Shown: piece after piece, positions 6,380 through 29,013 of the stretch | How positions within the stretch are numbered: position 1 is the stretch's first letter | Layout: each line of letters starts with the position of its first letter | Assembly: GCA_017479645.1 (NCBI GenBank) | Contig: JAFVBZ010000249.1 | Coordinates: 1-35,545, forward strand | Length of the DNA: 35,545 nt | Direction of reading: 5' to 3' | Origin: Ruminiclostridium sp. | Lineage (GTDB): Bacteria; Bacillota; Clostridia; Oscillospirales; Ruminococcaceae | Position numbers and translations under genes: made by a program | The notes under the pieces: model-generated | Databases searched by the model: none | What the model saw: the letters and a program-made list of their open reading frames with translations, nothing else | Told to the model about the DNA's origin: nothing

Positions 6380-6759
6380 GAGGTCGCTTGCGCTCGAGAA
6401 GGTCGCGCACGGCGCTCGAGATCGGGGGCAGACCCTTTTTGAAAAAAGGGTCATTCCCCCGAACCCCCTTCCCTAAAAACTTTATTCGCTCCGCAGTTAA
6501 GGGAGAAGGTTATCACAACAGAATGAAAGACTGCTGAAACTTATAAATCTCAGCAGTCTTTTCTTGTATTCAGATGAATATAACTAACCGAGGCGGCGCA
6601 CCTGTCAATAGAAGAATGTCGCTACGCATCAGTTTAGGGGGTCAAGCCCCCTTTTCCAAAGGGGGCTTGCGGGGGGGTTGGGGGGCAGCGCCCCCTCTCT
6701 CCGATCTCTCAAATCTCTCCGATCTCTCAAATCTCTCCGATATCTCAAAATCTCTCTCA
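6380..6759 (-). repeat. Composite 3'-end repeat between convergent genes (copy 1)
   Basis: Read on the minus strand this stretch matches 31411-31830 nearly throughout. It runs from the stop of the gene ending at 6757 to the stop of the ABC gene at 6379. Order on the minus strand: a GAGAGATxT tandem array (6695-6760); a G/C stem GGGGGCGCTGCCCCC; an AAGCCCCCTTT/AAAGGGGGCTT stem; a constant block with GCGTAGCGACATTCTTC; a 12-bp terminator-like stem (6526-6561); TAACTGCGGAGCGA; a GACCCTTTTT/AAAAAGGGTC stem (6431-6452); and two TCTCGAGCG units. No ORF in it looks real. It probably serves as a bidirectional terminator. Confidence 0.8.
6526..6562. terminator. Bidirectional terminator-like hairpin inside repeat copy 1
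   Basis: AAAGACTGCTGA and TCAGCAGTCTTT form a 12-bp stem around a short A/T-rich loop. T-rich sequence follows on the plus strand (TTTTCTTG) and a run ending in TTTCATTC follows on the minus strand. It lies between two convergent genes, as expected for a shared terminator. A near-identical hairpin is at 31583-31618. Confidence 0.6.
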
Positions 6760-9700: not shown

Positions 9701-10194
9701 TCCTTGCGCTTACGCTCCTCTTCTTCCGCACGAGCCTGTGCTTCCGCAAGCCGGCGCTCTTCCTCTTCTTTGCGTTTGCGTTCTTCTTCCTCGGCAATAA
9801 GCTTCGCTTCGGCTTCGATCTTTTCAAGCTTTTCCTTTTCGGCACGCTTGCGTTCTTCGGCTATTCGCTGTTTTTTTGCAAGTTCTTCGCGTTTCTTATC
9901 CTCGGCAAGCTGCTGCTTTTCCTCAAATTCGGCGCGCCGCTTTTCAGTCTGGAGTCTCTTTTCTTCGGAGCTTGCAAAAACAAGAGGATCGCCGGATTTT
10001 GAGCGGTTCTGTTTTTGTTCGCCGAATATGCCTATGTAAGGATCCTCCGTCTGCTCCTTTTCACCGCTTTTATGCGGCGATGAGCTTATTCCGAGTATAT
10101 CGTTCAATATGTCATCAACGTCTTCGGACGAGCTTTTGCCCCCGTCTTTATGACTGTACTTGTCGAGTATATCGTCAAGTGAAAAATCTGACAT
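6757..10194 (-). CDS. Coiled-coil arm fused to a P-type ATPase-like membrane protein, probably inactive
   Basis: This 1145-residue protein begins MSDFSLDDIL. Residues about 75-270 are a highly charged coiled coil of repeated EEERKRKEEE and AEARRIAEEE type. Residues 270-560 are acidic and low in hydrophobicity. Membrane segments follow at about 574-594, 610-636, 651-668, 680-696, 772-794 and 806-828, with two more at 1094-1116 and 1120-1140. Between them is a soluble region resembling the P and N domains of heavy-metal P-type ATPases (GVMGWYENKRIIMGSREHM; LAVGGELAVIFFIRLTANP). The DKTGTLT phosphorylation motif reads DAATLF (Asp864), TGD reads TTD, and GDGxND is not found, so pumping is unlikely. 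Start ATG 10194 uses AAAGGAG 11 bases upstream; GTG 10206 overlaps that site. It follows rlmB by 36 bp and is probably co-transcribed. Confidence 0.75.
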   Translation of the reverse strand: MSDFSLDDILDKYSHKDGGKSSSEDVDDILNDILGISSSPHKSGEKEQTEDPYIGIFGEQKQNRSKSGDPLVFASSEEKRLQTEKRRAEFEEKQQLAEDKKREELAKKQRIAEERKRAEKEKLEKIEAEAKLIAEEEERKRKEEEERRLAEAQARAEEEERKRKEEEELRIAEERARAEAEARRIAEEEERKRKEEEEARRLAEEEAKKSAETQRSDIPAAAEAVQPSAETENAQNGAPASEERLSAEERMRQQEEELKRRKFEEEERRFATKSVIVQDVPIELPGNAGKDSGQDQAEPTTEEIQLEKVLRQQKIEIDSQKLLIKETALEDPDDFLKAINPYDFSKKSEYTQQIETLTAEQMAGDTMGVDAILLKELAKSNAADPLVEDTRSIERIVGGDTRIMPDIEKPETSGYAINLDKTFEINDDIKEFIPKSDTKEVRKHSEEEERLLRSINNTIEQKRLSDIHDTNPASAYDTGPFDKIVIPTNTFKYEADVNKALHTGEIPMHDPEIAEQKLKELATKRKRRLSNFVLEDISDDDLDYYDDSAGEVNEDDEAGIWTDLVETQKSLRLRFVLLFIVTAAVFAIDIIQKVFIYQKIGMFGNELGILSNDGIVFANLIGGVLGMILCSSVMISGLGKIFKGKADCDSVCAVSCTVSLLASVLNLIDTNDLQQGRAFIYIPAALLGLLLNSVGKLSMIKRAKKNYHFMQSDAAKYCAEIVDGQSEASAFTKGVVSELPYLVTMRKTELFTDFLKKSYCEDMADRIAKRLVPISLAAGMIMGLLVYFIPNTTEVNGVQVFNNNIYWATSVFVAFVCLLSPFSMMFLVNNPFRRASRALLKHGSALLGYTSAEEFGEANSVLVDAATLFPKSAIECTNIKPCKLQNSINNISLDMAIILAASLAVNCNSVLSGLFFEMIGANREMLLKIDGCVYEDNMGVMGWYENKRIIMGSREHMKHHSIKIPEMSAIAKYSRNGSDSVYLAVGGELAVIFFIRLTANPSVRSEIKELTSRGTSVIIKTTDSLITIGRITDLFDVDPERVRIIGSSLHGLYNECTSYTANGCGALSGTGSFVSLAKGINASKKLLKDVSMSRVSLILGLIIGALFMIFLAFSPITAVFTPEAIIGWNLLWLLIMLFIQGFRKY

Positions 10195-10230
10195 CTGAGC
10201 CGTCACTCCTTTCCCGCACTTTGCGGTGAG

Positions 10231-11852: not shown

Positions 11853-12500
11853 ATGTGGAGCAAGGAATTTGACGCGGAAATAATGGCTGCAAAGCGAAAC
11901 GTTCTGCTTGAAAAAGGATTTGAGATCTTTACAAAGAGAGGCATAGAGTCCGTATCTATGCAGAATATCGCTGACGCGGCAGGCTGCGGAATAGCAACAC
12001 TTTACCGTTATTTCGATAAAAAACAGGGTTTTGTGATCGAGGTAGCTACAAAAAAATGGAATGAGATCCGGGAACTGGACAGCAAGAGGCGTGAGGAAGC
12101 AAACATTGCCGGCATGACAGCGGCGGAAATGCTCGAATTCTACCTTGACGGATTTCTGATACTGTACCGTGAGAAAAAGGATCTTCTGCGTTTCAATCAG
12201 ATGTTCAATATGTATGTGGAAGGGGCAGGGATAGAAAAAAACGCTCTTGAAACATACTATGGCATGATAGATAATTTCGGAGAGTACTTCCGTCTGATAT
12301 ATGAGCGGGCAAAGACGGATAAGACAGTCCGCACCGACATTTCGGAAGCGGAAATGTTCTCAACAACGCTTCATCTCATGCTTGCGGCGGTCACAAGATA
12401 CGCGGTGGGGCTTGTATATAAGCCGGAAACGGGATCTGACGATATGAAGGAGCTTGAAACGCTCAAAGCTATGATGCTTGCGATGTACAGGCAGGTATGA
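11853..12500 (+). CDS. TetR-family transcriptional regulator
   Basis: This 215-residue protein has an N-terminal helix-turn-helix at residues about 15-62. It contains GFEIFTKRGIESVSMQNIADAAG and CGIATLYRYFDKKQGFV, which is the TetR DNA-binding pattern. The remaining 150 residues are helical and would form the ligand-binding and dimer domain. The start ATG at 11853 has only a weak ribosome site (AAGGCGGG). A strong promoter with an inverted repeat lies just upstream, fitting autorepression. It sits 94 bp before the large c-di-GMP signalling gene and points the same way. It could therefore control that operon, or itself be carried along; the ligand is unknown. Confidence 0.88.
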   Translation: MWSKEFDAEIMAAKRNVLLEKGFEIFTKRGIESVSMQNIADAAGCGIATLYRYFDKKQGFVIEVATKKWNEIRELDSKRREEANIAGMTAAEMLEFYLDGFLILYREKKDLLRFNQMFNMYVEGAGIEKNALETYYGMIDNFGEYFRLIYERAKTDKTVRTDISEAEMFSTTLHLMLAAVTRYAVGLVYKPETGSDDMKELETLKAMMLAMYRQV

Positions 12501-12594: not shown

Positions 12595-14955
12595 ATGGAA
12601 AAGTGGGTAATAGTTGTTGATGATGACATCTTAAATCTGAAGGTAGCAGGATATATACTAAGCCGGAACGATATGCGCGTTACGTCTTTGAGCTCGGGCA
12701 AGGAGCTTCTTGACTGCGTAGCCGTGAACGGAACACCCGATCTGATACTGCTTGACATAAGCATGCCGGAAATGGACGGCTTTGAAGCACTCGAAAAGCT
12801 GCGCGAGACTGAAAAGGCAAACGGGTGGGAGGAGACCCCGGTCGTTTTTCTTACCGCTGCCGAGGGTGCAGACGCCGAGACTCACGGATTTGAAGCCGGC
12901 GTATCGGATTACATAAAAAAACCGTTTGTTCCGGAAGTTTTTCTGCGCCGCATAAACAATGTCTTATCAAAGCAGGAAAAAATGCTGAACTTTAAGAACG
13001 AGGCGACGATCGACAAACTCACGGGCTTTCTGAACAAGGGAGCTGCCGGCGTGGAATTTTCACGGCTGTGTTCATCGGAACCGGGCTGTATGCTGATGAT
13101 CGACCTTGATTCGTTCAAACTTGTAAATGATATCTACGGTCATGAGACCGGCGATGAGGTGCTGATAAGCTTTTCGCGGATAGTTTCCGCCGCTCTTCCG
13201 AAAGAGAGCAGGGTGGCAAGGTTCGGCGGCGATGAGTTTGTTTCATTCTGCCCGGAAAAGCTCAGCCATGAAAAGCTTTCGGAGATCACGGCGAAAATAA
13301 ATGAGGACATGATCAGAGACGCAAAGAAGCTTATGGGCGAAGATATGCAGATACCTATCGGCGCGTCGATAGGAGCTGTGGCGGTGCCGGATCACGGCAA
13401 CGACTATGATTCTCTTCTGAAGCTTGCGGACAAGGCGCTTTACAGCGTAAAGCGGCACGGAAAGCATGGCTGTGCGCTGTACAGCGCAGATGATTTCCCG
13501 GACGATGAAGAAAATGATATCCTTGATATCCACAGTGTTTCGGAGATACTCGGCGAACGCTCTATACCGAATGTCGCATTGCAGCTCGACAGCGAATCTT
13601 TCGCGTATGTTTACAGATATGTTATGAGGTACATCATACGCAATAACCGGACAGCCTGCAAAGTGATGTTTACGCTGTCCCGGAACGCGGGTACTGATGA
13701 GGACGAATACAAGGAGCTTTGTACCGAATTCGGAAATCATATAAGGGAATCTCTCCGGAAATCCGACATTTTCATGCGAAACCGCTCGGACAGGTATTTT
13801 GTGTTTCTCACAGATGTCCGCAGGGAAGCGACGGAAAAGGTCATCGGCAATCTTCTCCGCAGCTGGTGTGAGCTGCACGGCGACAAGCTCCTTGCGTCGT
13901 TTGAAACGGAGTTCGTCGGCAGCACGGACGATCATGTAAAGCATTCCGACAAGATCAGCATAGCTGTTGTTGATGACGATTACCCGAATCTGCGCATGGC
14001 AGAACATATACTGAACAAAGCAGGATACGGTGTCACCACGCTCAGATCCGGTCAGGCTCTGCTTGATCATGTCGAAAAAAGCATTCCCGATCTTATTCTT
14101 CTCGATATAATAATGCCCGACATGGACGGATTTGAAACAATTAAAAAGCTCCGCAGCATGGAGCGGGAAATATCGGAGATACCGGTAATATTCCTTACCG
14201 CCGATGATAATACGGAGTCGGAGAGCAAAGGTCTTTCCCTCGGCGCTATGGATTTTATCAAAAAGCCGTTTGCTCCGGAGATCTTTCTGCTCCGTGTAAG
14301 GCATACTATTGAGCTGACTACCCTTCAGCGCTCTCTTAGCGCTGAAGTGGAGCGCAAAACCGGTGAGAACAGAGCTTTGTTTCTGCACGTTGTAAAGTCT
14401 CTTGCCGACGCGATCGACGCAAAGGATACCTATACAAACGGACATTCCGGCAGAGTCGCGGAGTATTCAATGGAGATAGCAAGGCGCGCGGGATATCCGG
14501 CGCAGCGGCAGAGCGACATCTATATGATGGGACTTCTGCATGATGTAGGCAAGATAGGTATTCCCGACGCTGTGATAAACAAGCCTGCTCGTCTCACAGA
14601 CGAAGAATATGAGATCATCAAGACCCACCCGGTAATGGGCGCACGGATACTGAAAAATATACAGGAGATGCCGAAGCTTGCGACAGGTGCAAGGTGGCAT
14701 CATGAGCGCTATGACGGCAGAGGCTATCCGGACGGTCTGAAAGGCGGCGATATTCCCGAGGAAGCAAGGATAATCGCAGTAGCAGATGCTTACGATGCTA
14801 TGACGAGCCGCAGAAGCTACCGTGGCGTGATGTCTCGGGAAAAAGTCCGCAGCGAGATCGAAAAAGGAAGGGGTACACAGTTTGACCCGAGGTTTGCGGA
14901 CATAATGCTTGCAATGATAGACGAAGATGTGGATTATAAAATGAGAGAGGTATGA
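12595..14955 (+). CDS. Bifunctional c-di-GMP response regulator: REC-GGDEF-(degenerate GGDEF)-REC-HD-GYP
   Basis: This 786-residue cytoplasmic protein could both make and degrade cyclic di-GMP. Receiver 1 covers residues 3-125 with phospho-acceptor Asp54 (LILLDISMPEMDG). A GGDEF domain covers about 135-298 with intact GGDEF at 211-215 and no RxxD inhibition site at the usual spot. A second GGDEF-like stretch at about 325-440 has RSDRY (397-401) in place of the active motif. Receiver 2 covers 454-575 with Asp504. An HD-GYP phosphodiesterase domain covers about 595-780, with HD at 649-650 and HHERYDGRGYP at 702-712. The ribosome site GAAAGGAT is 7 bases before ATG. The next kinase gene starts 3 bp after the stop. 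Two receivers suggest input from two phosphorelays, probably the Hpt-bearing kinases downstream. Confidence 0.9.
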   Translation: MEKWVIVVDDDILNLKVAGYILSRNDMRVTSLSSGKELLDCVAVNGTPDLILLDISMPEMDGFEALEKLRETEKANGWEETPVVFLTAAEGADAETHGFEAGVSDYIKKPFVPEVFLRRINNVLSKQEKMLNFKNEATIDKLTGFLNKGAAGVEFSRLCSSEPGCMLMIDLDSFKLVNDIYGHETGDEVLISFSRIVSAALPKESRVARFGGDEFVSFCPEKLSHEKLSEITAKINEDMIRDAKKLMGEDMQIPIGASIGAVAVPDHGNDYDSLLKLADKALYSVKRHGKHGCALYSADDFPDDEENDILDIHSVSEILGERSIPNVALQLDSESFAYVYRYVMRYIIRNNRTACKVMFTLSRNAGTDEDEYKELCTEFGNHIRESLRKSDIFMRNRSDRYFVFLTDVRREATEKVIGNLLRSWCELHGDKLLASFETEFVGSTDDHVKHSDKISIAVVDDDYPNLRMAEHILNKAGYGVTTLRSGQALLDHVEKSIPDLILLDIIMPDMDGFETIKKLRSMEREISEIPVIFLTADDNTESESKGLSLGAMDFIKKPFAPEIFLLRVRHTIELTTLQRSLSAEVERKTGENRALFLHVVKSLADAIDAKDTYTNGHSGRVAEYSMEIARRAGYPAQRQSDIYMMGLLHDVGKIGIPDAVINKPARLTDEEYEIIKTHPVMGARILKNIQEMPKLATGARWHHERYDGRGYPDGLKGGDIPEEARIIAVADAYDAMTSRRSYRGVMSREKVRSEIEKGRGTQFDPRFADIMLAMIDEDVDYKMREV

Positions 14956-14958
14956 CGT

Positions 14959-17016
14959 ATGCGCGGCAGGGATCTTGAAACATCATTTCACATGATCTTA
15001 CTCGGTATGTTTTCCGTGTTGACGGTGCTGTTTGATATAATAATCGTACTGTCACAGTGGGAACTTCCGGCTATACCCATCATAACCGGTGCGTGCGCTT
15101 TATGCTGGGTGATGCATTTTACGGACACGGGAAAGCCTGCGGTCAGGCTGTACCTGTATATCATCGTCATTCTCGGAGTTCTGATGTTCTATGCTCTTCA
15201 CGGCATACCCATAACCGATATACCGATATTACTGTGCCTGCTTATAGTTATACTCTCGCGGCAGAATGACATCAAGCTTGTTCTGCTGACGGCTCTGTCA
15301 TACCCTATATACATCGCCGTGAATATTTTTATAACCGGATATCTGAATGCCGATACCCCGACTACGGTCTATTCAAGAATAGCTCTCGGGATCTTCTGCC
15401 TTTCGTTCGCGGCAGGGATAGCCGTATATTTTATCCGTATCGGCCGCAAGGACGGGAATGAAAAGAACGAACTGCGGCAGGAAGCGGCAGACGCTAAAAA
15501 TGATACAAAGCAGTTTCTTGCCAATATGTCCCACGAGCTCAGAACGCCCATAAATGTTATCTGCGGACTGAGCGAGCTGATGCTTGATGCCGATCTTCCG
15601 GAAAAATACGGTGACGACCTGTACGCACTCTACAGCGCGGGAAAGCGGATACAGCGTCAGATAAGCGATATACTCATATTCTCCGAATTGCAGACCGACC
15701 GTTTCAGGCTTGCGGAAGGCGAGTATGAGCCCGAATCGGTATTATATGATACGATACGAAGTGTATTCACAAGAACATACATAGGCGCGGATTTTGCCGT
15801 TGATATATCTCCCGCTGTCCCGCGTGTGCTTATCGGCGATGCAAAGCGTATCCGGAAAATACTCGAATGTCTGCTTGACAACGCGGTGAAATTCACGGAA
15901 TCCGGCGGCGGATATCTGTATGTCAGCGCACGTCCGCTGGGAGATGAAATAAATCTGAACATTGATGTGTATGATACCGGCGTCGGTATCGAGCATAAGT
16001 ACAAAAACCGTCTGTTCAGCGGAACATTTGCGGCTGACGACAGCACCGAGCGCCGCAGAGGCGGGCTTGGTCTGGGACTTGCCATAGTCCACGGGATAGT
16101 GCGTTCAATGCACGGTTTTATAAAACTTGAAAGCAGCGGCAATGGGACTCACGTTCACGTCACCGTTCCGCAGAAGGTGGCTGACCGGACTTGCTGCATA
16201 GGCATCTCCGGCGCGGGCAAATATCATGCGGTATGCTGGTTTGACCGCTCGAAATATGCACGCCGGGAGGTCGGAGAATACTACTATAAAACCGTGGATC
16301 ACGTCCATGAGGAACTGGGCGTGGACGTTACCGTGGTAACTTCGCTGTCACAGCTCAAAGAGCGGGTGGAAAAGGGCGGCGTAACGCACATTTTTATTGC
16401 CGAAGCCGAATATGGCAGTGACCCGTCATATTTTGAAAGGATCGCAAAGCAATGCTGGGTATGCGTATTTTCGGGCGGTCAGTTCACGCTTCCCGCCGAC
16501 AGCTCAGTCAGCATAATCAGAAAGCCTGTGTATCTTCCGGCGGTAGTGGGCTTCTTAAAGCGGTCCGGTCCCGGAGCGCAGACCGCAAGAATGGACGTTG
16601 AGACCGAAGAGGCACTGTCCCGTCTGCCGTCCGGTAAGAAGGCTCTTGTGGTGGACGACGAGCCGATGAACATAATGGTGGCAAAGGGTATGCTGCAAAG
16701 GTTCGGGCTCAGCGTATTCACGGCAGAGAGCGGTCCGGAGGCTATCGGTATATGCAGCTCCGAGAACATTGATATCATATTTATGGATCACATGATGCCG
16801 GATATGAACGGTACGGACGCTATGAGAGCGATACGTAATCTGAGCGGCGGCTATTACAGGCACAGACCGATAGTGGCGCTCACCGCCAACGCCATGAGCG
16901 GCGCGAGGGACAATTTCCTCAGTATGGGCTTTGACGGATTCCTTTCAAAGCCGGTATCAATGAAAAATATGCACAGAGTTCTGGAACAATTTTTGCGGGA
17001 GGACACAGATGAGTGA
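14959..17016 (+). CDS. Membrane hybrid histidine kinase with a pseudo-receiver and a receiver
   Basis: This 685-residue protein starts with five to six membrane helices (residues about 12-160) and no recognisable periplasmic sensor domain. A HisKA domain has the phospho-accepting His192 in FLANMSHELRTPIN. The ATPase domain spans about 260-405, with N-box ECLLDNAVKFTE, DTGVGI and GGLGLGLAI. Residues about 411-535 resemble a receiver fold without the acceptor Asp. A true receiver spans 558-680, with Asp610 in IIFMDHMMPDMNG and Lys in SKPV. There is no Hpt domain, so the phosphate must leave through another protein, perhaps the Hpt domains encoded downstream. Its start lies 3 bp after the stop of the c-di-GMP enzyme and its end overlaps the next gene by 8 bp, indicating coupled translation. 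Confidence 0.9.
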   Translation: MRGRDLETSFHMILLGMFSVLTVLFDIIIVLSQWELPAIPIITGACALCWVMHFTDTGKPAVRLYLYIIVILGVLMFYALHGIPITDIPILLCLLIVILSRQNDIKLVLLTALSYPIYIAVNIFITGYLNADTPTTVYSRIALGIFCLSFAAGIAVYFIRIGRKDGNEKNELRQEAADAKNDTKQFLANMSHELRTPINVICGLSELMLDADLPEKYGDDLYALYSAGKRIQRQISDILIFSELQTDRFRLAEGEYEPESVLYDTIRSVFTRTYIGADFAVDISPAVPRVLIGDAKRIRKILECLLDNAVKFTESGGGYLYVSARPLGDEINLNIDVYDTGVGIEHKYKNRLFSGTFAADDSTERRRGGLGLGLAIVHGIVRSMHGFIKLESSGNGTHVHVTVPQKVADRTCCIGISGAGKYHAVCWFDRSKYARREVGEYYYKTVDHVHEELGVDVTVVTSLSQLKERVEKGGVTHIFIAEAEYGSDPSYFERIAKQCWVCVFSGGQFTLPADSSVSIIRKPVYLPAVVGFLKRSGPGAQTARMDVETEEALSRLPSGKKALVVDDEPMNIMVAKGMLQRFGLSVFTAESGPEAIGICSSENIDIIFMDHMMPDMNGTDAMRAIRNLSGGYYRHRPIVALTANAMSGARDNFLSMGFDGFLSKPVSMKNMHRVLEQFLREDTDE

Positions 17017-20000
17017 AGAAAGGGAACAGACCCATATACTGATAACCACCGACAGCGTTTGTGACCTGCCTCAGGAACTTATCAGGGAATATTCGGTAAA
17101 AGTCCTTCCCAACATTGTCAGGACACGGGACGGGCAGTTTCTTGACGGCGTGGAGATAAGCCCCGACGATCTTCTTGATTATATGGAAACAACGGACGAT
17201 GTTGTTATGTCAGACGCTGCTTCGGAAGAGGATTATCTGAGTTTTTTCAGAGAAAACATACGCGGCAATACCGCGATACTTCACATAACAATGGGGCGGT
17301 ATGCGAGCAAGGGCTACGATAATGCGGTAAAAGCGGCTGAAAGCGTACCCGGCGTATATGTTCTCGACTCCGGACAGATCTCCAGCGGTCTCGGACTTGT
17401 CGTTCTCAGGGCGGCGGAGCTTGCAAGAGAAGAGCATAATATGCAGCAGCTCCGCGCGGAGGTCAGTGAGTACGCTTCAAGGGTATCATCGACATTCATA
17501 GTGCGCGAGCTTGAGTTTATGAACAGGAACGGCAGACTCAGCAACGGTATGCGCAAGCTGTGTGAAAGAATGCTGCTGCGTCCCATGCTTGTGATGAAGA
17601 AAAGCAGGATCGCCGTAGGCGGTATGGTGTACGGACTTCACGAAGCGTCGATGCGCTCCTATATACGCGGACAGCTGCACGGCAGGAATGACATTGAGAC
17701 CGACACGCTTTTCATAACCTATGCGGGACTCGATGACACCGAGCTTGGAAAAATAGCGGAGACAGTCCGGAAATACGCGATATTCCGCAATATTTATTTC
17801 GTGAAGGCTTCCTCGGCAGTAGCCTGCAACTGCGGCAGGGGCTGCTTCGGTCTGCTCTTTGCGTACAGTCCGAAGGAAAAGAGCAGGAGGGGAACGGAGC
17901 ATATCCTCTCAAAGCGCTTCAATTATGCGCTGCTGGCGGTGTTCACTGTTGCTATGAGCGTGGTGCTGATGTTCAATTTCAGGCTGTTCTACTCGATGAT
18001 AAGCGGGCAGGCTGATGCGATAGGACGCGCACAGCTTGAATCGGTATCGGGAGACCTTGAACAGACACTGTACGAAGCGGAGATACTCACGAGACAGATA
18101 GCGTCGGGACTGGAGCTGCTCTACAAGGAAAACGCTTCGGGAGACGAGATCGACGCCTATCTCAAAACAAACAAGGACTACAATTCCGTCGGAAGCTGCA
18201 CGAACGTCTATGCCGCGGGCGAGGACTGGTACAGCATTCCGGATTTTGTGATGCCGGAGGATTTTGACCCTGTTCAGCGCGACTGGTACAAGGGCGCACG
18301 CAAAAAGGGAAGCGGCAGTATCTATTATACTGCCCCATATCTTGATCTTGCGTCGGGAGAAATGTGCTTCACGGTTTCGGAGCTGCTGTCCGACGGAACG
18401 ACTGTAGTCGCGCTCGACTTCAACCTGACAGGCTTGCAGGAGAGCGTTTCAAAGATAAGTATTGCGGGCGGTGACGCTCTTATTGTCAGCGGGAGCGGTC
18501 AGATAGTCGGTTATGCCGATGTTGCTGCGGTAGGTCAGCCTATTTCCGCAGCTCTGCCGCAGTACACCGCCGTATTCCAGAGAATACTTTCCTCCGGTGA
18601 GAGCTCACTTAATTTCCATACAAAGATAAGCGATACCGACAGCGTTGTCTTCTACAATCGTACCGCGAATGAATGGTATCTGCTGTCCGTAGTCAGCCAG
18701 ACCGCTCTCTACCGGAACAATATGACAGGTATCATCGCAAATACGGCGGTAAATCTCTGCCTTATTGCGGGAATGATACTGCTGTACATTTTCAGCATAC
18801 GTTACAGGAAAAGGATAGAGCAGCGCCTTAAATATACCGAAAGCGCAGTCAGCGGCGCGGTCGCCAGAATAAGCGCGCCTATGGAAGACATAGTAAAGCG
18901 CAGCGATTACCGCCTTCTCCGGTCAAGCGACGAACCGGAAGTCTATATGGAGCGTCTGCGTGAGTCCTCGCTCAAAATGAAATCCGCACTTGCCTCGCTT
19001 TATACGGTAGATACCGATGCCGGCAAAAAGGAGAATGAGAGCGGCAGGATAATAAAAGACGTACATGCCGATTCGGACATCTCCGACCGCACCAACAAGC
19101 ATGCCTGCGCCGGTATCATAGCGCTGCTCACGGTAACGATGATACTGTGCATCGCGATATCGACGGTACTTATGATAAACAGGGGCAATACCCGTATGGA
19201 AAAGGAAACGGGAGATTACACATCGGAACTTGAGTCGTGGATAGTCGAGCAGAAAAGCGTACTGGATATGTTTGTGAGCTTTATTTCCGCTGAGCCGGAA
19301 ATGCTCGGTGATTATGACAAATGCGTTGAATGGCTGAACGATATCACCGTGCAGTATGATGATATCTCGGTATCGTACATGACCGACCCCCGCGCGGAGC
19401 ATACAGTTATTATGAACAACGGCTGGGAGCCCGATGATGACTGGCACGTTGAGGAAAGACAGTGGTACATAGATTCCATAGAGTCGGAAAAAGAGGACGG
19501 CTTCTCCGTATCCGCCCCGTATTATGACGAACAGATAGGAGCTTACTGCGTCACATTCAGCAAAAGAGTATATGACAAGACCGGCAATTTCTTAGGAGTT
19601 TTCGGAATAGATTTCTTCCTTGACAAGCTTACCGGCATACTTGATTCGAGCTATACCGATGAGGGGTATGCGTTTCTTGCGGACGCGGACGGGCAGATCA
19701 TAAATCACCCCGCTCCGGAGTATCAGATGTCGGAAAGCAACGTGGTAACACTTGAACAGGCAGGTTATCTTGATGCGGTGCTCGCCGGGGACACTGTCGT
19801 CATCAAAGACTATGACGGCGGCTACAAAGCCTTTTATGCAGTACCCGACCCTACCTCCGGCTTCACTATTGTCTGCGCGAAAAACTGGAATGTGATATAC
19901 GGCAGTCTTGTAAGCTACATCATTGTTTTCATAGTGATATTCGGCGCGGGTATAGCGATAACAGGCTCACTGCTCCATATGATGATCGTGTGGCAGAAGC

Positions 20001-21673
20001 GGGTGCGGAAAACTCTCGAAAATTCCGCCGCGGAAGCCGAAAAAGCAGGTCAGGCAAAATCGCAGTTCCTTGCGCAGATGTCGCATGAGATACGCACCCC
20101 GATAAACGCAGTGCTCGGTATGAACGAGATGATAATGCGCGAGAGCAGCAGCGATGATATCAAGGAATACTCTGAGAACATACAGAACGCCGGAAGGACG
20201 CTGCTTACGCTGATAAACAGCATTCTCGACTTCTCCAAGATAGAGGACGGAAAAATGGAGATAGTTCCCGTCAGCTATGACACTGCGTCAATGATAAACG
20301 ATCTTGTCAATATGGTGCTTGAAAGAGCTGAACAGAAAAATCTTGAATTTAAGACAGAGATCGACAGGAACCTGCCCAAAACGCTGTACGGCGACGATGT
20401 GCGTATCAGACAGATAATCACAAATATCCTCACCAACGCGGTGAAATACACTCCCAAGGGCAGTGTGACCCTGCGTATGCTTATAGCGGACAGAAACGGC
20501 GACAAGATAACTCTTCGCACCGAGGTTCAGGACACCGGTATCGGTATCCGCCCCGAGGACAGAGATGCGCTTTTCGAGTCGTTCAGAAGGCTTGACAGCG
20601 AGAAAAACCGTGCCATTGAAGGCACAGGTCTCGGTATCTCCATTGTTCAGAAGCTGCTCGTTATGATGGGAAGCGAGCTCCAGCTCGACAGCGTTTACGG
20701 CGAGGGCTCACGGTTCTGGTTCGATATAGTGCAGGAGGTCGTTGACGATGAGCCTATCGGCGACTATGAGGAGCATCTGCGCCTGTCCCGTCACAATGAA
20801 AACAGCCGGGAGTATATCTACGCTCCCGATGCGAGAGTTCTTGTCGTAGATGACAACATGATGAATCTTAAAGTTGCGAAAGGACTTCTCAAACGCACAG
20901 GCATAAAGGTCGATATCGTTGCCGGCGGCAGCGACGCTATAAAGGCAGTCTCGCAGAACAGGTATGACATTATCTTCCTTGACCACATGATGCCGGACAT
21001 GGACGGACTTGAAACGCGGAAGAATATGGAAACGGCAGGTCTGCTGGACGAGAAGACTGCGGTCATAATGATGACTGCGAATGCCATAGTCGGCGCTAAG
21101 GAGGAGTACATTGCGGCGGGCTTCACCGATTATCTGTCCAAGCCGATTGAAGTCAGAAGCCTTGAAACTATCCTTAAAAAATATCTGCCCGCCGAAAAGA
21201 TAGGTTATAGGACTGCTGACGGCGATAATAAAGTAAGAGAACCCGCTGCTGCCGATACTGCGATAGCGGAGCAGCCTGCTCAGAACCCTCCCGAAACGGA
21301 TATTACCGAGGAACAAGCAAATGCCGGAAATGAGCGGCACATCAGCATCTCTGCCGGAATGGGATTTTGCATGAATGATACGGGATTTTACAAAGAAATG
21401 CTCGGCACATTCATCAGTGAAAGCCCGGTCAAGCGTGAACAGCTTGAAGCTGCCCTTAAAAGTGAAGATACAAAGCAATATACAGTGCAGATACACGGGC
21501 TTAAAAGCACTTCAAAGACGATAGGCGCTGTCATGCTGCCGGATATGGCGCTTAAGCTCGAGCTTGCCGGAAAAGAGGGACGGTTTGATGATATAAAGCT
21601 TGGTCACGCCGAGGTAATGAAGGAGTATGAGGCTGTCCTGTCCGCGGCGGAAGAACTGATAAAGACACTGTAA
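17009..21673 (+). CDS. DegV domain fused to a dual-Cache hybrid histidine kinase with receiver and Hpt
   Basis: This 1554-residue protein has an unusual layout. Residues 8-290 are a DegV (fatty-acid-binding EDD fold) domain, with TTDSVCDLPQELI, VLDSGQISSGLGL and ELEFMNRNGRLSNGMR. A membrane helix (305-325), an extracellular dCache-like domain (330-572) and a second helix (575-597) follow. A cytoplasmic linker, helix 3 (700-722), a second dCache-like domain (725-962) and helix 4 (965-992) come next. HisKA has His1026 in FLAQMSHEIRTPIN. The ATPase domain spans about 1090-1245 (TNILTNAVKYTP, DTGIGI, GTGLGISI). The receiver has Asp1325 (LDHMMPDMDG) and Hpt has His1496 (QIHGLKSTSKTIG). DegV proteins such as FakB bind fatty acids, so this end could report cytosolic lipid while the Cache domains sense external ligands. 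The DegV LSGT motif is altered (GRYASKG) and cysteines replace part of the HxGPG motif. Confidence 0.9.
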   Translation: MSEEREQTHILITTDSVCDLPQELIREYSVKVLPNIVRTRDGQFLDGVEISPDDLLDYMETTDDVVMSDAASEEDYLSFFRENIRGNTAILHITMGRYASKGYDNAVKAAESVPGVYVLDSGQISSGLGLVVLRAAELAREEHNMQQLRAEVSEYASRVSSTFIVRELEFMNRNGRLSNGMRKLCERMLLRPMLVMKKSRIAVGGMVYGLHEASMRSYIRGQLHGRNDIETDTLFITYAGLDDTELGKIAETVRKYAIFRNIYFVKASSAVACNCGRGCFGLLFAYSPKEKSRRGTEHILSKRFNYALLAVFTVAMSVVLMFNFRLFYSMISGQADAIGRAQLESVSGDLEQTLYEAEILTRQIASGLELLYKENASGDEIDAYLKTNKDYNSVGSCTNVYAAGEDWYSIPDFVMPEDFDPVQRDWYKGARKKGSGSIYYTAPYLDLASGEMCFTVSELLSDGTTVVALDFNLTGLQESVSKISIAGGDALIVSGSGQIVGYADVAAVGQPISAALPQYTAVFQRILSSGESSLNFHTKISDTDSVVFYNRTANEWYLLSVVSQTALYRNNMTGIIANTAVNLCLIAGMILLYIFSIRYRKRIEQRLKYTESAVSGAVARISAPMEDIVKRSDYRLLRSSDEPEVYMERLRESSLKMKSALASLYTVDTDAGKKENESGRIIKDVHADSDISDRTNKHACAGIIALLTVTMILCIAISTVLMINRGNTRMEKETGDYTSELESWIVEQKSVLDMFVSFISAEPEMLGDYDKCVEWLNDITVQYDDISVSYMTDPRAEHTVIMNNGWEPDDDWHVEERQWYIDSIESEKEDGFSVSAPYYDEQIGAYCVTFSKRVYDKTGNFLGVFGIDFFLDKLTGILDSSYTDEGYAFLADADGQIINHPAPEYQMSESNVVTLEQAGYLDAVLAGDTVVIKDYDGGYKAFYAVPDPTSGFTIVCAKNWNVIYGSLVSYIIVFIVIFGAGIAITGSLLHMMIVWQKRVRKTLENSAAEAEKAGQAKSQFLAQMSHEIRTPINAVLGMNEMIMRESSSDDIKEYSENIQNAGRTLLTLINSILDFSKIEDGKMEIVPVSYDTASMINDLVNMVLERAEQKNLEFKTEIDRNLPKTLYGDDVRIRQIITNILTNAVKYTPKGSVTLRMLIADRNGDKITLRTEVQDTGIGIRPEDRDALFESFRRLDSEKNRAIEGTGLGISIVQKLLVMMGSELQLDSVYGEGSRFWFDIVQEVVDDEPIGDYEEHLRLSRHNENSREYIYAPDARVLVVDDNMMNLKVAKGLLKRTGIKVDIVAGGSDAIKAVSQNRYDIIFLDHMMPDMDGLETRKNMETAGLLDEKTAVIMMTANAIVGAKEEYIAAGFTDYLSKPIEVRSLETILKKYLPAEKIGYRTADGDNKVREPAAADTAIAEQPAQNPPETDITEEQANAGNERHISISAGMGFCMNDTGFYKEMLGTFISESPVKREQLEAALKSEDTKQYTVQIHGLKSTSKTIGAVMLPDMALKLELAGKEGRFDDIKLGHAEVMKEYEAVLSAAEELIKTL

Positions 21674-21691: not shown

Positions 21692-24304
21692 ATGGGAATT
21701 CTGTTAAGTGCTGCGCTTATAATAATGGGAACCGTATCGACCGTATATGGCGTACAGTTTTTCAGACGTGAAAAGTCAGCCGGATATTTCCGTGCGGCTA
21801 TACTGCTTATGGGACTTGCAGTCGGGATATGGGGATTCGGATATGGTTTTATCGGTATATGCGGCGATTTTGCCGTTTGTTCGCATCTGCGCCGTGCGGG
21901 CTTGTTTGGCGTCGACATATTCCCCCTTGCGGAAACGATAGTGGCGCTGCACAAAGCCGGAGTAAACCGGAAAATACAGAATATAGTCCGCTTCATTCTG
22001 ACACCGCTCGCATTGACAGACTGGTGGCTGTTTTCGGGAGAAAAGGTCGATGAATTTGTCCGTGTCGGAAACTGGACTACGTGGCAGGCGGTTGATTGCC
22101 CGGAGAGGACTTTCCATTGGATCTATACGGTGGTCATTTTCCTTTCGGCGCTGACTTCATGGATAGTCTGGTACGGCAAAGTAAGGCTGAAGCGCGAAAA
22201 GGCACTGCTGCTCCGCATACTTGCCGCCAATCTTACGCTGATGCTCTGCTCCGGACCGGATACATTCCTGACAGCCGTTACGGGAGTTGTATATCCGACA
22301 TCGGGTCTTGGCGCGGGACTTGCATTTCTGATATGGATCATTGCCGTTGTAAAATACAACACCTTTACAGTCTCATCACGGGCTATGGGAGATTATGCAC
22401 AGACGGTAGTGAATGTCGGTCTTGTTATATTTGATGACAGTTTCCTTGCGATGGAAATGAATAATTTCGCAAGAAAAGAGCTGGATATGGTGCCGGGCAG
22501 GCATCTCACCGAGCTTGTGCGCCTGCATCAGAGTGAAGAGGAAATATTCGGACGGGTGATCGCAGATGACAGATATACATTCAAGTGCATTTCCGCAAGC
22601 GGAGACAAGACCTGTATAGCAGATATGATCACGCTTCGAGACAACTATGATGAAGCATACGGATATATCATGACCGTAACGGATATTTCAAAAGAAGAAC
22701 AGCTTATAGCCGAGGCAAGGCGGGCAAATGAAGCAAAGAGTGAGTTCCTTGCAAATATGTCTCATGAAATACGAACACCGATAAACGCCGTACTTGGTTT
22801 TGATGAGCTTATCCTGCGGGAGACTAAGGAAGAAACAACAAGCGGTTATGCGGCAAATATCAAGCACAGCGGTGAGACTTTGCTGTCACTGGTAAACGAT
22901 ATACTCGATTTTTCCAAGATAGAAAGCGGAAAGATGGATATTGTGCCCGTAAGCTACGACCCTGCGCAGATGTTCGAGGATCTCATCGTTATGATAACTC
23001 CCCGTGCGGAGGCAAAGGAGCTTGCGATAGAATACGATATTGCCGACGATATCCCGGCACAGCTTTTCGGAGATGATATGCGTATCCGTCAGGTCGTGAC
23101 CAACCTGCTTACAAATGCCGTAAAATACACGGAAACCGGCACTGTCACACTTTCCGCGTGCATAAAGGAAAGGCGAGCCGGTGCAGTTATTTTGCATATT
23201 TCTGTCAGAGATACCGGAATAGGGATAAAGGACGAGGACAAAGCGCACCTGTTTGAATCGTTCAGGCGCGTCGATATCAGCCGCACCCGCAATATAGAGG
23301 GTACCGGACTCGGACTTTCCATAACACTGCGCTGCCTGGAGCTTATGGCCAGCAGTCTTGAGCTCGACAGCGAGTACGGCAAAGGCTCGGATTTCTGGTT
23401 CGATATAGAGCAGAAGACCGAAAGCAGCGATACGATCGGTTCCTTTGCGGAAAGAATGTCTCTCGCCCGCAGAAATGTCAGCGTTTCCCGGGAATCGTTC
23501 ACTGCACCCGGAGCAAAGGTGCTCGTAACTGATGACAACCTTATGAATCTGCAGGTGTTCAAGGGTCTGCTCAGAAAGACGGAGATAGATATAACTTCTG
23601 TCATCAGCGGGGCTGAAACGATCACCGCATTGGAGAAGCAAAAATATGATATTGTATTTCTTGACCACATGATGCCGGAAATGGACGGTATCGAGACATT
23701 GGAGAAAATAAAGGCAAGCCGGATCATCGACATACAGGGTACGCCGATCATCGCTCTCACTGCCAATGCCGTCTCCGGCGCAAGAGAGATGTATCTGAAC
23801 GCGGGATTTGACGACTATCTCACAAAACCGATAAGATACGACAAGCTTGAAAAAATGATCCTTAAATATCTTCCCGAAGAGAAGATAATGTACAATAAAG
23901 CGGAAGGCACCGCCGCGTCACAGGCGGCTCACGACAGTCCGGAACCGGAAAACACGCTGAACGAAGAGATAAATGATCTGATAGATAAAAAAGTCGGGCT
24001 GGAGTATTGCATGAATGATGAGAACTTCTACCGTGAGATGCTTGACACATATATCAAGGAAAAGCCGGAAAAGCTCGCACAGCTTGGATCAGCATTAGAA
24101 AACGGGGATATAAAACGATATACCGTGCTGATACATGGACTCAAAAGTACATCAAAGATGATAGGCTCGGTTAAATTCTCCGAACTTGCTTATGAACTTG
24201 AGCGTGCAGGAAAGGAAGGGAGACTTGATGATATAAGGAAAAAGCATAATTATGTTATGAAAGTTTATGGGTGGGTCATAAAGGAAGCTCAAAAAATGAT
24301 ATAG
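21692..24304 (+). CDS. 7TM hybrid histidine kinase with PAS-like region, receiver and Hpt
   Basis: This 870-residue protein has a seven-helix N-terminal region (about 1-225) of the 7TM histidine kinase sensor type, then a PAS-like segment (about 232-335, ending VTDISKEEQLIAEARRANE). HisKA has His358 (FLANMSHEIRTPINAVLGF) and the ATPase domain spans about 425-575 (NLLTNAVKYTE, DTGIGI, GTGLGLSI). The receiver has Asp658 (FLDHMMPEMDG). A C-terminal Hpt has His815 (LIHGLKSTSKMIG). It lies 18 bp after the DegV-kinase gene with its own ribosome site (GGAGATGATGAAG). Its kinase, receiver and Hpt parts resemble those of that gene closely, so duplication of the core with exchange of the sensor is likely. 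It is the last gene of the signalling cluster. Confidence 0.9.
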   Translation: MGILLSAALIIMGTVSTVYGVQFFRREKSAGYFRAAILLMGLAVGIWGFGYGFIGICGDFAVCSHLRRAGLFGVDIFPLAETIVALHKAGVNRKIQNIVRFILTPLALTDWWLFSGEKVDEFVRVGNWTTWQAVDCPERTFHWIYTVVIFLSALTSWIVWYGKVRLKREKALLLRILAANLTLMLCSGPDTFLTAVTGVVYPTSGLGAGLAFLIWIIAVVKYNTFTVSSRAMGDYAQTVVNVGLVIFDDSFLAMEMNNFARKELDMVPGRHLTELVRLHQSEEEIFGRVIADDRYTFKCISASGDKTCIADMITLRDNYDEAYGYIMTVTDISKEEQLIAEARRANEAKSEFLANMSHEIRTPINAVLGFDELILRETKEETTSGYAANIKHSGETLLSLVNDILDFSKIESGKMDIVPVSYDPAQMFEDLIVMITPRAEAKELAIEYDIADDIPAQLFGDDMRIRQVVTNLLTNAVKYTETGTVTLSACIKERRAGAVILHISVRDTGIGIKDEDKAHLFESFRRVDISRTRNIEGTGLGLSITLRCLELMASSLELDSEYGKGSDFWFDIEQKTESSDTIGSFAERMSLARRNVSVSRESFTAPGAKVLVTDDNLMNLQVFKGLLRKTEIDITSVISGAETITALEKQKYDIVFLDHMMPEMDGIETLEKIKASRIIDIQGTPIIALTANAVSGAREMYLNAGFDDYLTKPIRYDKLEKMILKYLPEEKIMYNKAEGTAASQAAHDSPEPENTLNEEINDLIDKKVGLEYCMNDENFYREMLDTYIKEKPEKLAQLGSALENGDIKRYTVLIHGLKSTSKMIGSVKFSELAYELERAGKEGRLDDIRKKHNYVMKVYGWVIKEAQKMI

Positions 24305-26278: not shown

Positions 26279-26875
26279 ATGATGAGATCGGTAACACCTA
26301 TGAGGACCGCAAAGGCAGGCTACATTGCAATGTCGGTCATTCTTATGGCGGCAGGAGCAGTTCTTATCGCCGCGCCGGACACACTGGCTTCCGCAATGTG
26401 CAGTGTGCTTGGAGTAGTTTCCGCGGTATTCGGCGGAGTAAAGATAGCAAGCTACTTCTCAAAGGATCTGTTCAGGCTTGCTTTCCAGCATGACCTTGCG
26501 GAAGGCATTCTGCTGATGATCCTCGGAGTAACGGCGGCAGTAAAACCGGAGCTGTTCCTCGGATTCATCGGCGTGATATTCGGGGTATGCGTACTTGCGG
26601 ACGGATTGCTGAAAATACAGACGGCGATCGACGCAAAGGTTTTCGGGGTAAGCAAGTGGTGGCTGATACTCGCGGCAGCGATCGCGGCGGATATCGCAGG
26701 ATTCTTCCTCATAATCAATCCCGTTGACAGCGCGGCTGTAGTTGCGGTGATTCTCGGCGTGACGCTTTTAATGGAGGGTCTGCTGAACCTCATCACCGTT
26801 CTGGTGGCGGTAAAGATAGTAAAGAACCAGCTTCCGGACGACATTATCACGGTAAATCCAGTGAACACTCACTGA
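26279..26875 (+). CDS. DUF308 (HdeD-like) membrane protein
   Basis: This 198-residue protein has about six membrane helices in two repeated halves: about 13-31, 37-55, 72-92, 95-113, 127-146 and 152-178. Each half carries the SVLGVVSAVFGGVKI or VILGVTLLMEGLLNL type segment typical of DUF308/HdeD proteins. HdeD is linked to acid resistance in enteric bacteria; in Firmicutes the role is unknown. The start ATG follows a GGGGGCGATGAT leader, and a second ATG directly after it is also possible. The MMPL gene follows by 26 bp with its own ribosome site. The two are likely one transcription unit, starting after the terminator at 26164-26228. Confidence 0.82.
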   Translation: MMRSVTPMRTAKAGYIAMSVILMAAGAVLIAAPDTLASAMCSVLGVVSAVFGGVKIASYFSKDLFRLAFQHDLAEGILLMILGVTAAVKPELFLGFIGVIFGVCVLADGLLKIQTAIDAKVFGVSKWWLILAAAIAADIAGFFLIINPVDSAAVVAVILGVTLLMEGLLNLITVLVAVKIVKNQLPDDIITVNPVNTH

Positions 26876-26901: not shown

Positions 26902-29013
26902 ATGAAATTCGCAAATGCGGTAGTTAAATACCGCGTGCCGATCATTATAGTAAGCCTTGTGCTTATGGTGCCGGCACTGCTCGGTATGATCGGAACAAGG
27001 ATCAACTACGATATGCTCGACTACCTGCCGTCGGACATGGACACAGTAAAAGGACAGGAAGAACTGATGAACGAATTCGGAAAGGGAGCCTTCTCCTTCA
27101 TAGTCGTGGAGGATATGCCGGATAAGGACGTTGCGGCGATGGCGGAGCAGATAAAGACCGTCGAGCACGTCGATACCGTTCTTTGCTGGCAGGATATGGC
27201 GGATATAACGATACCGAAGGAATTTCTTCCCGAAAAGATATACTCGGCGTTCAACAACGGAAATGCGACAATGATGGCGGTATTCTTCGACAGCTCCACA
27301 TCGGCTGATGTTACAATGGAAGCTATCAGGAATGTCCGTTCGATAGCCGGAAAACAGGCGTTTGTTTCCGGAATGTCCGCACTCGTTACAGACCTTAAAG
27401 AACTGTGCGAAAAGGAAGAGCCGATCTACGTCGGCATAGCGGTAATACTTGCCTGTGCGGCGATGATGATCTTCCTTGACAGCTGGCTGGTGCCTTTCGT
27501 TTTCCTTGCAAGTATCGGTATGATGATACTGCTGAACCTGGGAACCAACTACTTCATGGGCGAGATCTCATACATCACCAAAGCGCTTTCGGCAGTCCTC
27601 CAGCTTGCGGTAACAATGGACTACTCGATATTCCTCTGGCACAGCTACAATGAGAAGCTTGAAAAGATAAGCGACAACAAGCAGGCAATGGCAGAAGCGA
27701 TACACGAAACGCTCACCAGCGTTCTCGGAAGCTCGGTCACCACGATAGCCGGATTCATAGCCCTCTGCTTCATGTCGTTCACTCTCGGCGCAGACCTCGG
27801 AATAGTAATGGCAAAGGGCGTTCTTCTGGGAGTCATAGGCTGTGTTACAGTCCTCCCGGCGCTGATACTTGCGCTTGACAAACCCCTCCAGGCAACAAAG
27901 CACCGCTCGCTTATCCCGGATATGAGCAAGCTTGCGTCCGGTATAACAAAGGTGTTCCCGGTATTTATCGCGGTGTTTGCGATACTTGTATTCCCGGCTT
28001 ATTACGGGTACTCAAAGACGAATGATGAAGTTTACTACGATCTCGGCGAATGCCTGCCGGAAGATATCGACTATGTGATCGCAAACTCAAAGCTCCGTGA
28101 TAATTTCGATGTAGCTTCGACTCACATGCTCCTTGTTGACGCGGAGACTTCTTCAAAGGACGTCCGCTCCATGATAAATGAAATGAAGCAGGTTGACGGA
28201 GTAAAGTATGTTCTCGGACTTGAGAGCGTTGTCGGCTCGGCGGTGCCGGAAGAAGTGATACCGGACAGACTGAAGGAAGCGCTGGTAAGCAACAAATGGG
28301 AGCTTATCCTCGTGAACTCGGAATACAAGGTAGCAAGCGATGCCGTAAACAGCCAGCTTGACGATCTTAACGCGATACTGAAAAAGTACGACAAGGGCGG
28401 AATGCTCATAGGCGAAGCGCCCTGCACGAAGGATATGATAGAGACTACCGGTCACGACTTCCGGGTAGTAAGCGCAGTTTCGATAGTAGCGATATTCGTT
28501 ATAATCGCGGTTGTTGAGAAGTCGGTATCCCTGCCGTTCATACTGATAGCGGTAATAGAGCTTGCGACATTCATCAACCTCGGACTCCCGCACTACATGG
28601 GTCAGTCGCTCCCGTTCATTGCTCCTATCTGCATAAGCACGATACAGCTTGGCGCGACAGTCGATTACGCGATACTGATGACCACAAGATACAAAACGGA
28701 GCGTATCGGCGGTGCCGGCAAGCTCGACGCAGTAAGAACAGCACTCACGACATCTATCCCGTCGATAATCGTCAGCGGTATGGGATTGTTCGCAGCAACA
28801 TTCGGAGTTGCGGTATATTCCGATATAGATATAATCAGCTCGATGTGCATGTTAATGGCAAGAGGCGCAGTGATAAGCATGATATGTGTAATATTTATCC
28901 TGCCGGCGCTTCTCTTGCTGTGTGACGCGCTGATAAGACATACGACGCTCGGAATGAGCGGAGAAGGCAGCGACAGCCGCAGACATACCGGCAGACTGCT
29001 GCACAGCCGTTGA
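26902..29013 (+). CDS. MMPL/RND-family membrane transporter
   Basis: This 703-residue protein has two repeats of the RND/MMPL fold. A helix at 11-30 is followed by an extracytoplasmic loop (about 35-170) and five helices (about 175-330). A second helix (about 345-365), loop and five-helix bundle follow. The two halves carry TMDYSIFLWHSY (Asp240-Tyr241) and TVDYAILMTTRYK, matching the conserved Asp-Tyr proton-relay motif of MMPL proteins. Such proteins export lipids or lipid-like compounds using the proton gradient. It lies 26 bp after a DUF308 gene. It precedes a gene for a YhgE-like secreted coiled-coil protein, an association often seen in Firmicutes (from memory). The stop codon is followed at once by a dispersed repeat. 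Confidence 0.88.
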   Translation: MKFANAVVKYRVPIIIVSLVLMVPALLGMIGTRINYDMLDYLPSDMDTVKGQEELMNEFGKGAFSFIVVEDMPDKDVAAMAEQIKTVEHVDTVLCWQDMADITIPKEFLPEKIYSAFNNGNATMMAVFFDSSTSADVTMEAIRNVRSIAGKQAFVSGMSALVTDLKELCEKEEPIYVGIAVILACAAMMIFLDSWLVPFVFLASIGMMILLNLGTNYFMGEISYITKALSAVLQLAVTMDYSIFLWHSYNEKLEKISDNKQAMAEAIHETLTSVLGSSVTTIAGFIALCFMSFTLGADLGIVMAKGVLLGVIGCVTVLPALILALDKPLQATKHRSLIPDMSKLASGITKVFPVFIAVFAILVFPAYYGYSKTNDEVYYDLGECLPEDIDYVIANSKLRDNFDVASTHMLLVDAETSSKDVRSMINEMKQVDGVKYVLGLESVVGSAVPEEVIPDRLKEALVSNKWELILVNSEYKVASDAVNSQLDDLNAILKKYDKGGMLIGEAPCTKDMIETTGHDFRVVSAVSIVAIFVIIAVVEKSVSLPFILIAVIELATFINLGLPHYMGQSLPFIAPICISTIQLGATVDYAILMTTRYKTERIGGAGKLDAVRTALTTSIPSIIVSGMGLFAATFGVAVYSDIDIISSMCMLMARGAVISMICVIFILPALLLLCDALIRHTTLGMSGEGSDSRRHTGRLLHSR

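Follow-up and report, generated by a model that had tools for sequence, protein, structure and literature searches.

A FakB-like DegV domain fused to a dual-Cache hybrid histidine kinase in Ruminiclostridium, and its kinase-linked relatives in Clostridia

The 35,545-nucleotide contig JAFVBZ010000249.1 of Ruminiclostridium sp. (GenBank assembly GCA_017479645.1), the whole of which is referred to here as the window, carries a gene cluster in which an open frame at positions 17009..21673 (+) encodes a protein of 1,554 amino acids (aa) that joins a DegV domain to a hybrid histidine kinase (Table 1). The established role of DegV and FakB proteins is to carry lipids. A first-pass annotation had described this frame as uninterrupted, with a DegV domain, two dCache-like domains, HisKA and ATPase domains, a receiver domain (REC) and an Hpt domain, and all of these were found by Pfam above cut-off. 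PF02645 matched residues 10 to 285, where a DegV domain at residues 8 to 290 had been proposed, with 134.7 bits (cut-off 27) over profile positions 2 to 278 of 280, and TIGR00762 gave 148.8 bits against a cut-off of 99.7. The predicted model of the domain and its matches in PDB likewise point to the DegV fold. For dCache_1, 110.6 bits were obtained (cut-off 45) over two stretches; the second of these, together with a match to MCP-like_PDC_1 at residues 774 to 875, delimits the second Cache domain. Four hydrophobic segments and the charges flanking them predict that both Cache domains are extracellular and the DegV domain cytoplasmic, the latter because a Lys/Arg-rich stretch precedes the first transmembrane segment (TM1). 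The phosphoacceptors of a hybrid-kinase phosphorelay (His1026, Asp1325, and His1496 of the Hpt) are intact.

Table 1. Features of the window, with two comparison loci in the last rows
Feature	Position	Strand	Basis
TetR-family regulator, head of cluster	11853..12500	+	Pfam TetR_N
Response regulator, REC-GGDEF-REC-HD-GYP	12595..14955	+	Pfam
HK1, partner hybrid kinase, TM-HisKA-HATPase-REC, no Hpt	14959..17016	+	Pfam
Shine-Dalgarno-like GGGAGGA inside HK1 end, five bases before DegV-kinase ATG	16997..17003	+	Sequence
DegV (FakB-like) domain, residues 10-285	17036..17863	+	Pfam PF02645, residue mapping, model and PDB matches
TM1, residues 304-322	17918..17974	+	Hydropathy scan
First dCache domain, predicted extracellular, residues 330-560	17996..18688	+	Pfam dCache_1
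TM2, residues 579-597	18743..18799	+	Hydropathy scan
Predicted cytoplasmic stretch at the site of a histidine-less HisKA-like helix pair in L047 and L070	18836..19048	+	Profile scores, inference
TM3, residues 703-721	19115..19171	+	Hydropathy scan
Second dCache domain, predicted extracellular, about residues 722-970	19172..19918	+	Pfam and own profile on orthologues
TM4, residues 971-989	19919..19975	+	Hydropathy scan
HisKA, residues 1016-1081, SHEIRTP with His1026	20054..20251	+	Pfam, residue check
HATPase_c, residues 1128-1240	20390..20728	+	Pfam
Receiver domain, residues 1277-1389, Asp1325	20837..21175	+	Pfam, residue check
Hpt, residues 1463-1525, His1496; sole Hpt found in the HK1 and DegV-kinase pair	21395..21583	+	Pfam, residue check
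Third hybrid kinase, HisKA-HATPase-REC-Hpt	21692..24304	+	Pfam
DUF308 protein, downstream of cluster	26279-26875		Pfam
MMPL-family transporter, downstream of cluster	26902-29013		Pfam
L204: signalling-type stand-alone DegV behind a hybrid kinase, then an HD-GYP gene	6544-7407 and 7388-9544	-	
L140: stand-alone DegV of the same genome as the window, Asn at His270, Arg205 and Arg173 kept, no kinase neighbor	3977-4864	-	

The gene overlaps the 3' end of the gene for the partner hybrid kinase, HK1, by 8 bases. Among 72 genomes of the genus, 6 had frames of the same type, with that of the window counted in, and such frames also occur in six named public Clostridia records (loci L055 to L060), two of which are from water-deer rumen or omasum; the two sets overlap, and the frame in L057 ends at a contig edge after the second Cache domain. 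Across the DegV part, the ratio of nonsynonymous to synonymous substitution rates (dN/dS) was 0.13 against L045, 0.19 against L060, and 0.13 against L044, which indicates that the domain is under purifying selection. An accidental or artefactual fusion in one assembly, or a missed stop as the first-pass annotation had cautioned, can be discounted almost entirely: the source genome is a draft of 275 contigs with 4.28% contamination, but conserved orthologues in the six named records and in another five genomes of the genus (overlapping sets) already refute it, the start codon is preceded by a ribosome-binding site, and dN/dS lies well below 1.

Within the gene, the synonymous rate (dS) against L060 and L044 was 0.05-0.11 in the DegV domain through the second Cache domain, except for a short linker, and stepped up to 0.3-1.3 from the kinase core onwards, which suggests recombination between species. 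L046 (5562-10112) and L047 (4280-8773) encode relatives of the kinase body in which a different hydrophobic N-terminal part replaces DegV; in L047 this part matches HisKA_7TM weakly, and a histidine-less HisKA-like segment lies between the Cache domains. A second HisKA-like segment was undetectable between the Cache domains of the window protein (0.1 bits, compared with -1.1 for a control stretch, 15.3 for L047, and 19.5 for L070).

Distribution and single origin of kinase-linked DegV domains

To search for relatives, a profile of 12 kinase-linked DegV domains (A1) was run on genome contigs of 84,980 species. Of the 500 stretches that matched, 447 code for relatives, and the best 80 yielded 79 named loci; as the best-scoring of the 447, these under-sample rarer layouts. 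Most domain calls in these relatives and in the pairs described below were made not with Pfam but with small profiles of our own, built from Pfam-mapped proteins. All 79 named loci hold DegV in one frame with two-component domains (in L057, with two Cache domains only). DegV is C-terminal, after the receiver, in 72 of them, with the arrangement 6TM-HisKA-HATPase-REC-DegV (6TM, six transmembrane segments) where the protein is complete; seven of the 72 show the last domains only. Six others are of the window type (DegV-dCache-kinase), and one, L100, is a DegV-Hpt protein. L155, from another genome, reads 6TM-HisKA-HATPase-REC-DegV-Hpt. The commonest form seen is 6TM-HisKA-HATPase-REC-DegV beside a partner hybrid kinase, and it occurs in the named strains Schaedlerella arabinosiphila DSM 106076 and Acetatifactor muris DSM 23669 (record titles). 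DegV-Hpt, REC-DegV-Hpt, the window type, and a stand-alone DegV directly behind a hybrid kinase are rarer forms. In L037 (2606-5283) a 6TM-kinase-DegV gene reads as two frames (210 and 682 aa), either a split gene or an assembly fault.

With strict cut-offs, so that the frequencies are lower bounds, fused DegV frames were found at genus level in at least 21 of 72 genomes (27 proteins, E 1e-58), at class level in 9 of 391 (E 1e-62; the genome of the window included), and at phylum level in 3 of 398 (E 1e-68), each of these three belonging to that class. The first-pass annotation had taken the fusion for a new type of lipid-sensing two-component system and knew of no described kinase like it. 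A full DegV fold, predicted to be cytoplasmic, is indeed joined to a dual-Cache hybrid kinase in the window, but the joining is not a one-off: every one of the 79 loci examined fuses DegV to two-component domains, the family is widespread and has several layouts besides that of the window, and novelty by uniqueness was rejected.

All DegV domains tested that are linked to two-component systems, fused or stand-alone, fell into one clade (support 100/100) on a long stem, in trees of 127 and 60 sequences, and in both trees this clade was separate from canonical stand-alone DegVs and from FakB1 and FakB2. These trees indicate that kinase-linked DegVs share one origin, in a single FakB-like lineage. 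The window-type domains were sister to the DegV-Hpt protein of L100 (98/93 and 97/96), but this grouping unites two long branches and was flagged for that reason in the larger tree, whose bootstrap values had not yet converged. A single clade of all fused copies without the stand-alone ones was weak (81/36) and was not adopted.

FakB site residues and a two-residue signature

Site residues were compared between 91 fused copies (89 distinct sequences) and 21 stand-alone DegVs, with FakB1 numbering after PMC8892158 and the A121I mutant chain of 6mh9 as the FakB1 string. PMC8892158 names Arg205 of FakB1 as the key residue for FakA binding. His270 is part of the carboxylate hydrogen-bond network of FakB1. 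Ser68, Ser99, Arg176, Tyr208, and Asn274 of the window protein align with Thr62, Ser95, Arg173, Arg205, and His270 of FakB1, respectively. At the sites of the carboxylate network it has Ser68, Ser99, and Asn274, the latch and catalysis residue Arg173 is present as Arg176, and the FakA-docking arginine is not found, Tyr208 standing in its place. With His270 replaced by Asn and Arg205 by Tyr, the domain is not a normal FakB.

These changes run through the fused copies. At the Thr62 site, fused copies have Ser (88) or Thr (3), and stand-alone DegVs Thr (20) or Ser (1); Ser95 is kept in 87 of 91 and 21 of 21, respectively. The Arg173 site is more variable, with Arg in 59 fused copies, Gln in 17, Lys in 9, His in 5, and Leu in 1, against Arg in 20 and Lys in 1 of the stand-alone proteins. 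Arg205 is absent from all 91 fused copies, where Met, Phe, Ile, or Tyr mostly occupies the site, while the stand-alone DegVs have Arg (19), Lys (1), or Ile (1); the His270 site is Asn in 91 of 91 fused copies, compared with His in 20 and Asn in 1 of the stand-alone set. By this alignment, the fused DegVs retain the hydroxyls that hold the carboxylate, and the FakA-docking arginine and the histidine are gone.

The single exception among the 21 stand-alone DegVs (genome G004, locus L138) lies between a hybrid kinase with an Hpt and genes for REC-GGDEF and REC-HD-GYP proteins. The surroundings of 32 stand-alone DegVs were then inspected, comprising all 25 stand-alone matches of the 72-genome genus scan and 7 others. 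Seven have lost both Arg205 and His270, and all seven lie directly behind a hybrid kinase (at most 22 bases away or overlapping, stop to stop); none of 24 canonical stand-alone DegVs is beside a two-component gene. L138 was known before the rule was framed; for the other six kinase-adjacent proteins both residues and neighbors were new, and for some canonical ones the residues were already known and only the neighbors were new. The seven cases amount to fewer than seven independent events, given their kinship, and the matches were found with a kinase-type profile. The remaining protein has mixed residues and is L140, from the genome of the window, which is not kinase-adjacent; Asn270 alone was accordingly dropped as a mark of the signalling type. 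That genome has its own FakA, and its two stand-alone DegVs both have Arg205, so the lipid-carrying task is covered elsewhere in it. At L138 (9888-12120, -), two PnrA-like (Bmp) substrate-binding proteins lie in tandem upstream of the kinase and the stand-alone DegV, a hint that a nucleoside-type ligand may be sensed as well.

Partner kinases and the proposed role of the DegV domain

Kinases directly upstream of DegV genes share the membrane part of HK1 in 75 of 82 cases, compared with 1 of 23 other kinases at the same loci; the profile was built from HK1 of the window and that of L035, two of the proteins then counted. The 82 pairs exclude two pairs whose sequences duplicate others and all loci with no upstream kinase frame at 300 bases or less, whether because the contig is cut, the frame is broken, or, as in L156, HK1 with an Hpt is about 500 bases off; one pair includes the stand-alone DegV of L138. 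Exactly one Hpt was found in each of the 82 distinct pairs. It is on the upstream kinase and not on the DegV protein in 74, and the reverse holds in eight, namely the six of the window type, L100, and L155. This pattern fits two kinases feeding one shared Hpt. Six further stand-alone DegVs adjacent to a kinase lie outside the 82, and in five the Hpt is on the kinase. A response regulator gene is beside 73 of the 82 distinct units, and in 29 it carries GGDEF and/or HD-GYP; the regulator of the window is a possible relay output, via cyclic di-GMP (c-di-GMP).

The reading we favor, and consider probable, is that the DegV domain is a module derived from FakB that senses lipid, independently of fatty-acid kinase, and tunes a phosphorelay. 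It builds on what the sequences provide: domain architecture, membership of one clade, changed site residues, the distribution of kinases and Hpt domains, and the gene neighbors. The DegV domain would most likely still hold an acyl-chain ligand in the cytoplasm and would no longer dock on fatty-acid kinase. As an input, its ligand occupancy, reflecting internal lipid state, may tune a phosphorelay made up of HK1, the DegV-kinase with its two external Cache sensors, and one Hpt that the two would share. The relay would then phosphorylate the neighboring response regulator, whose domains are of the types that make and break c-di-GMP. It is plausible that one protein integrates internal lipid with two external ligands. 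More tentatively, and with somewhat less confidence than doubt, the family may form an undescribed class of intracellular lipid sensor, a FakB lineage freed from fatty-acid kinase and used as a phosphorelay plug-in by gut Clostridia, which gates transfer around the REC/Hpt step; in this way membrane lipid state would control c-di-GMP and behavior. In a bolder form, the module would respond to acyl-phosphate itself.

Several observations weigh against this lipid-sensing reading. No ligand has been seen, Arg173 is not universal in the clade, and loss of His270 could mean another ligand or none. DegV follows the receiver in most relatives, the usual place of an output domain, and the modelled REC-DegV tether is loose (predicted template modeling score 0.65; linker predicted local distance difference test under 50); a fixed REC-DegV interface was dropped after this second model. 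With our own profiles, 44 of the 82 units have a receiver-type regulator only, with no c-di-GMP domain visible, an adjacent regulator gene was not found in 9 of the 82, and in L204 an Hpt was found on neither the stand-alone DegV nor the kinase. Counts within the clade are not independent events.

Three alternatives give the domain another role. The remodelled pocket, with Asn for His270 and a changed entrance, might sense a ligand other than a fatty acid, and the exchange of His270 in all 91 fused copies, the replacement of Arg173 in 32 of them, and the small hydroxylated ligands of DhaK-fold relatives (dihydroxyacetone and glyceraldehyde, from structure titles) speak for this; we regard it as unlikely. 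Somewhat less likely still is that DegV is an output, the phosphorelay controlling its uptake or release of fatty acid and thereby feeding or starving membrane lipid synthesis. The position after the receiver in 72 of 79 named loci and the retained carboxylate hydroxyls would suit such a role, but the arginine that docks FakA is gone from 91 of 91 fused and 7 of 7 kinase-adjacent stand-alone copies, and DegV also occurs N-terminal of the membrane and Cache domains, as in the window, or as a separate gene. A ligand-free docking or scaffold domain that brings the two partner kinases and their Hpt together would account for the near-constant adjacency of HK1 and the one-Hpt rule; it is improbable, as the pocket residues are conserved across the fused clade, although the polar pocket sites of the kinase-adjacent DegV of L215 are mostly hydrophobic. 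That protein (6397-7281, -) has Ile62, Ile173, Leu205, and Ile270, with Ser95 kept, and is perhaps a ligand-free or very different version.

If the lipid-sensing reading is true, the clade that moved into two-component systems would provide bacterial kinases with an apparently dedicated module for sensing lipid in the cytosol. Its hosts are gut and rumen Clostridia, exposed to changing fatty-acid loads. Simple predictions for any genome follow from the joint loss of Arg205 and His270 and from the one-Hpt rule, which is nearly constant.

Related systems and neighboring genes

As the first-pass annotation had supposed, no described DegV-kinase was found in the open-access literature (subscription papers and preprints being outside its scope); each part has been described before, but their combination, as far as our search goes, has not. 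Such fusions may well have been annotated automatically. In the portion of PMC3146951 consulted, DegV genes adjoin hemolysin III genes and are not placed in kinases. An effect of intracellular fatty acid on a two-component system has a parallel in Staphylococcus aureus, where free fatty acids inhibit SaeRS (PMC5539427); there the effect is indirect, via the free fatty-acid pool, and no mention of a DegV domain in the kinase is made in the abstract. FakB1 and FakB2 of S. aureus share PF02645 with the window clade, which differs in its replaced Arg205 and His270, its separate position in the trees, and its ties to a hybrid kinase, covalent or by gene adjacency. TorS, BarA, and ArcB resemble the window protein in the HisKA-HATPase-REC-Hpt core with intact residues. 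Among the best 25 of 140 NCBIfam families, no named equivalog cut-off was reached, TorS ranking first with 361.8 bits against 676.5, and the window protein differs further in its predicted cytoplasmic DegV domain, its two dCache domains in series, and an Hpt apparently shared with a second kinase. The DhaQ co-activator and a DhaR-DhaK complex were among the distant solved fold relatives of the DegV domain (structure titles). DhaQ-DhaS of Lactococcus lactis and DhaK-DhaR of Escherichia coli are DhaK-fold regulators with fold kinship only and a different ligand, and they act on transcription factors, not kinases. The degV and degU genes of Bacillus subtilis are presumably neighbors; an open-access literature search on this point gave nothing. 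An anti-phage role of the locus was rejected, as PADLOC matches were confined to kinase and receiver parts.

The third hybrid kinase also lies downstream in L045 and is partly covered in L056, L059, and L060; in L055, the 2.2 kb that follow the gene showed no such kinase. Two long open reading frames (ORFs) of the window, at 6757-10206 (-; 1,149 aa) and 29193-31424 (+; 743 aa), had no Pfam match at E 0.001. Lipid transport is a frequent role of MMPL proteins, but no ORF of MMPL length was seen in the 4.3 kb behind the third kinase in L045. L044 and L045 have orthologues of the TetR-family regulator at the corresponding position (94% and 88% identity, respectively). In several genomes of the genus (L035 at 5617-6420, L036, L042, L034, and L037), a small lipoprotein-like ORF of about 270 to 280 aa lies between the 6TM-kinase-DegV and REC-GGDEF genes.
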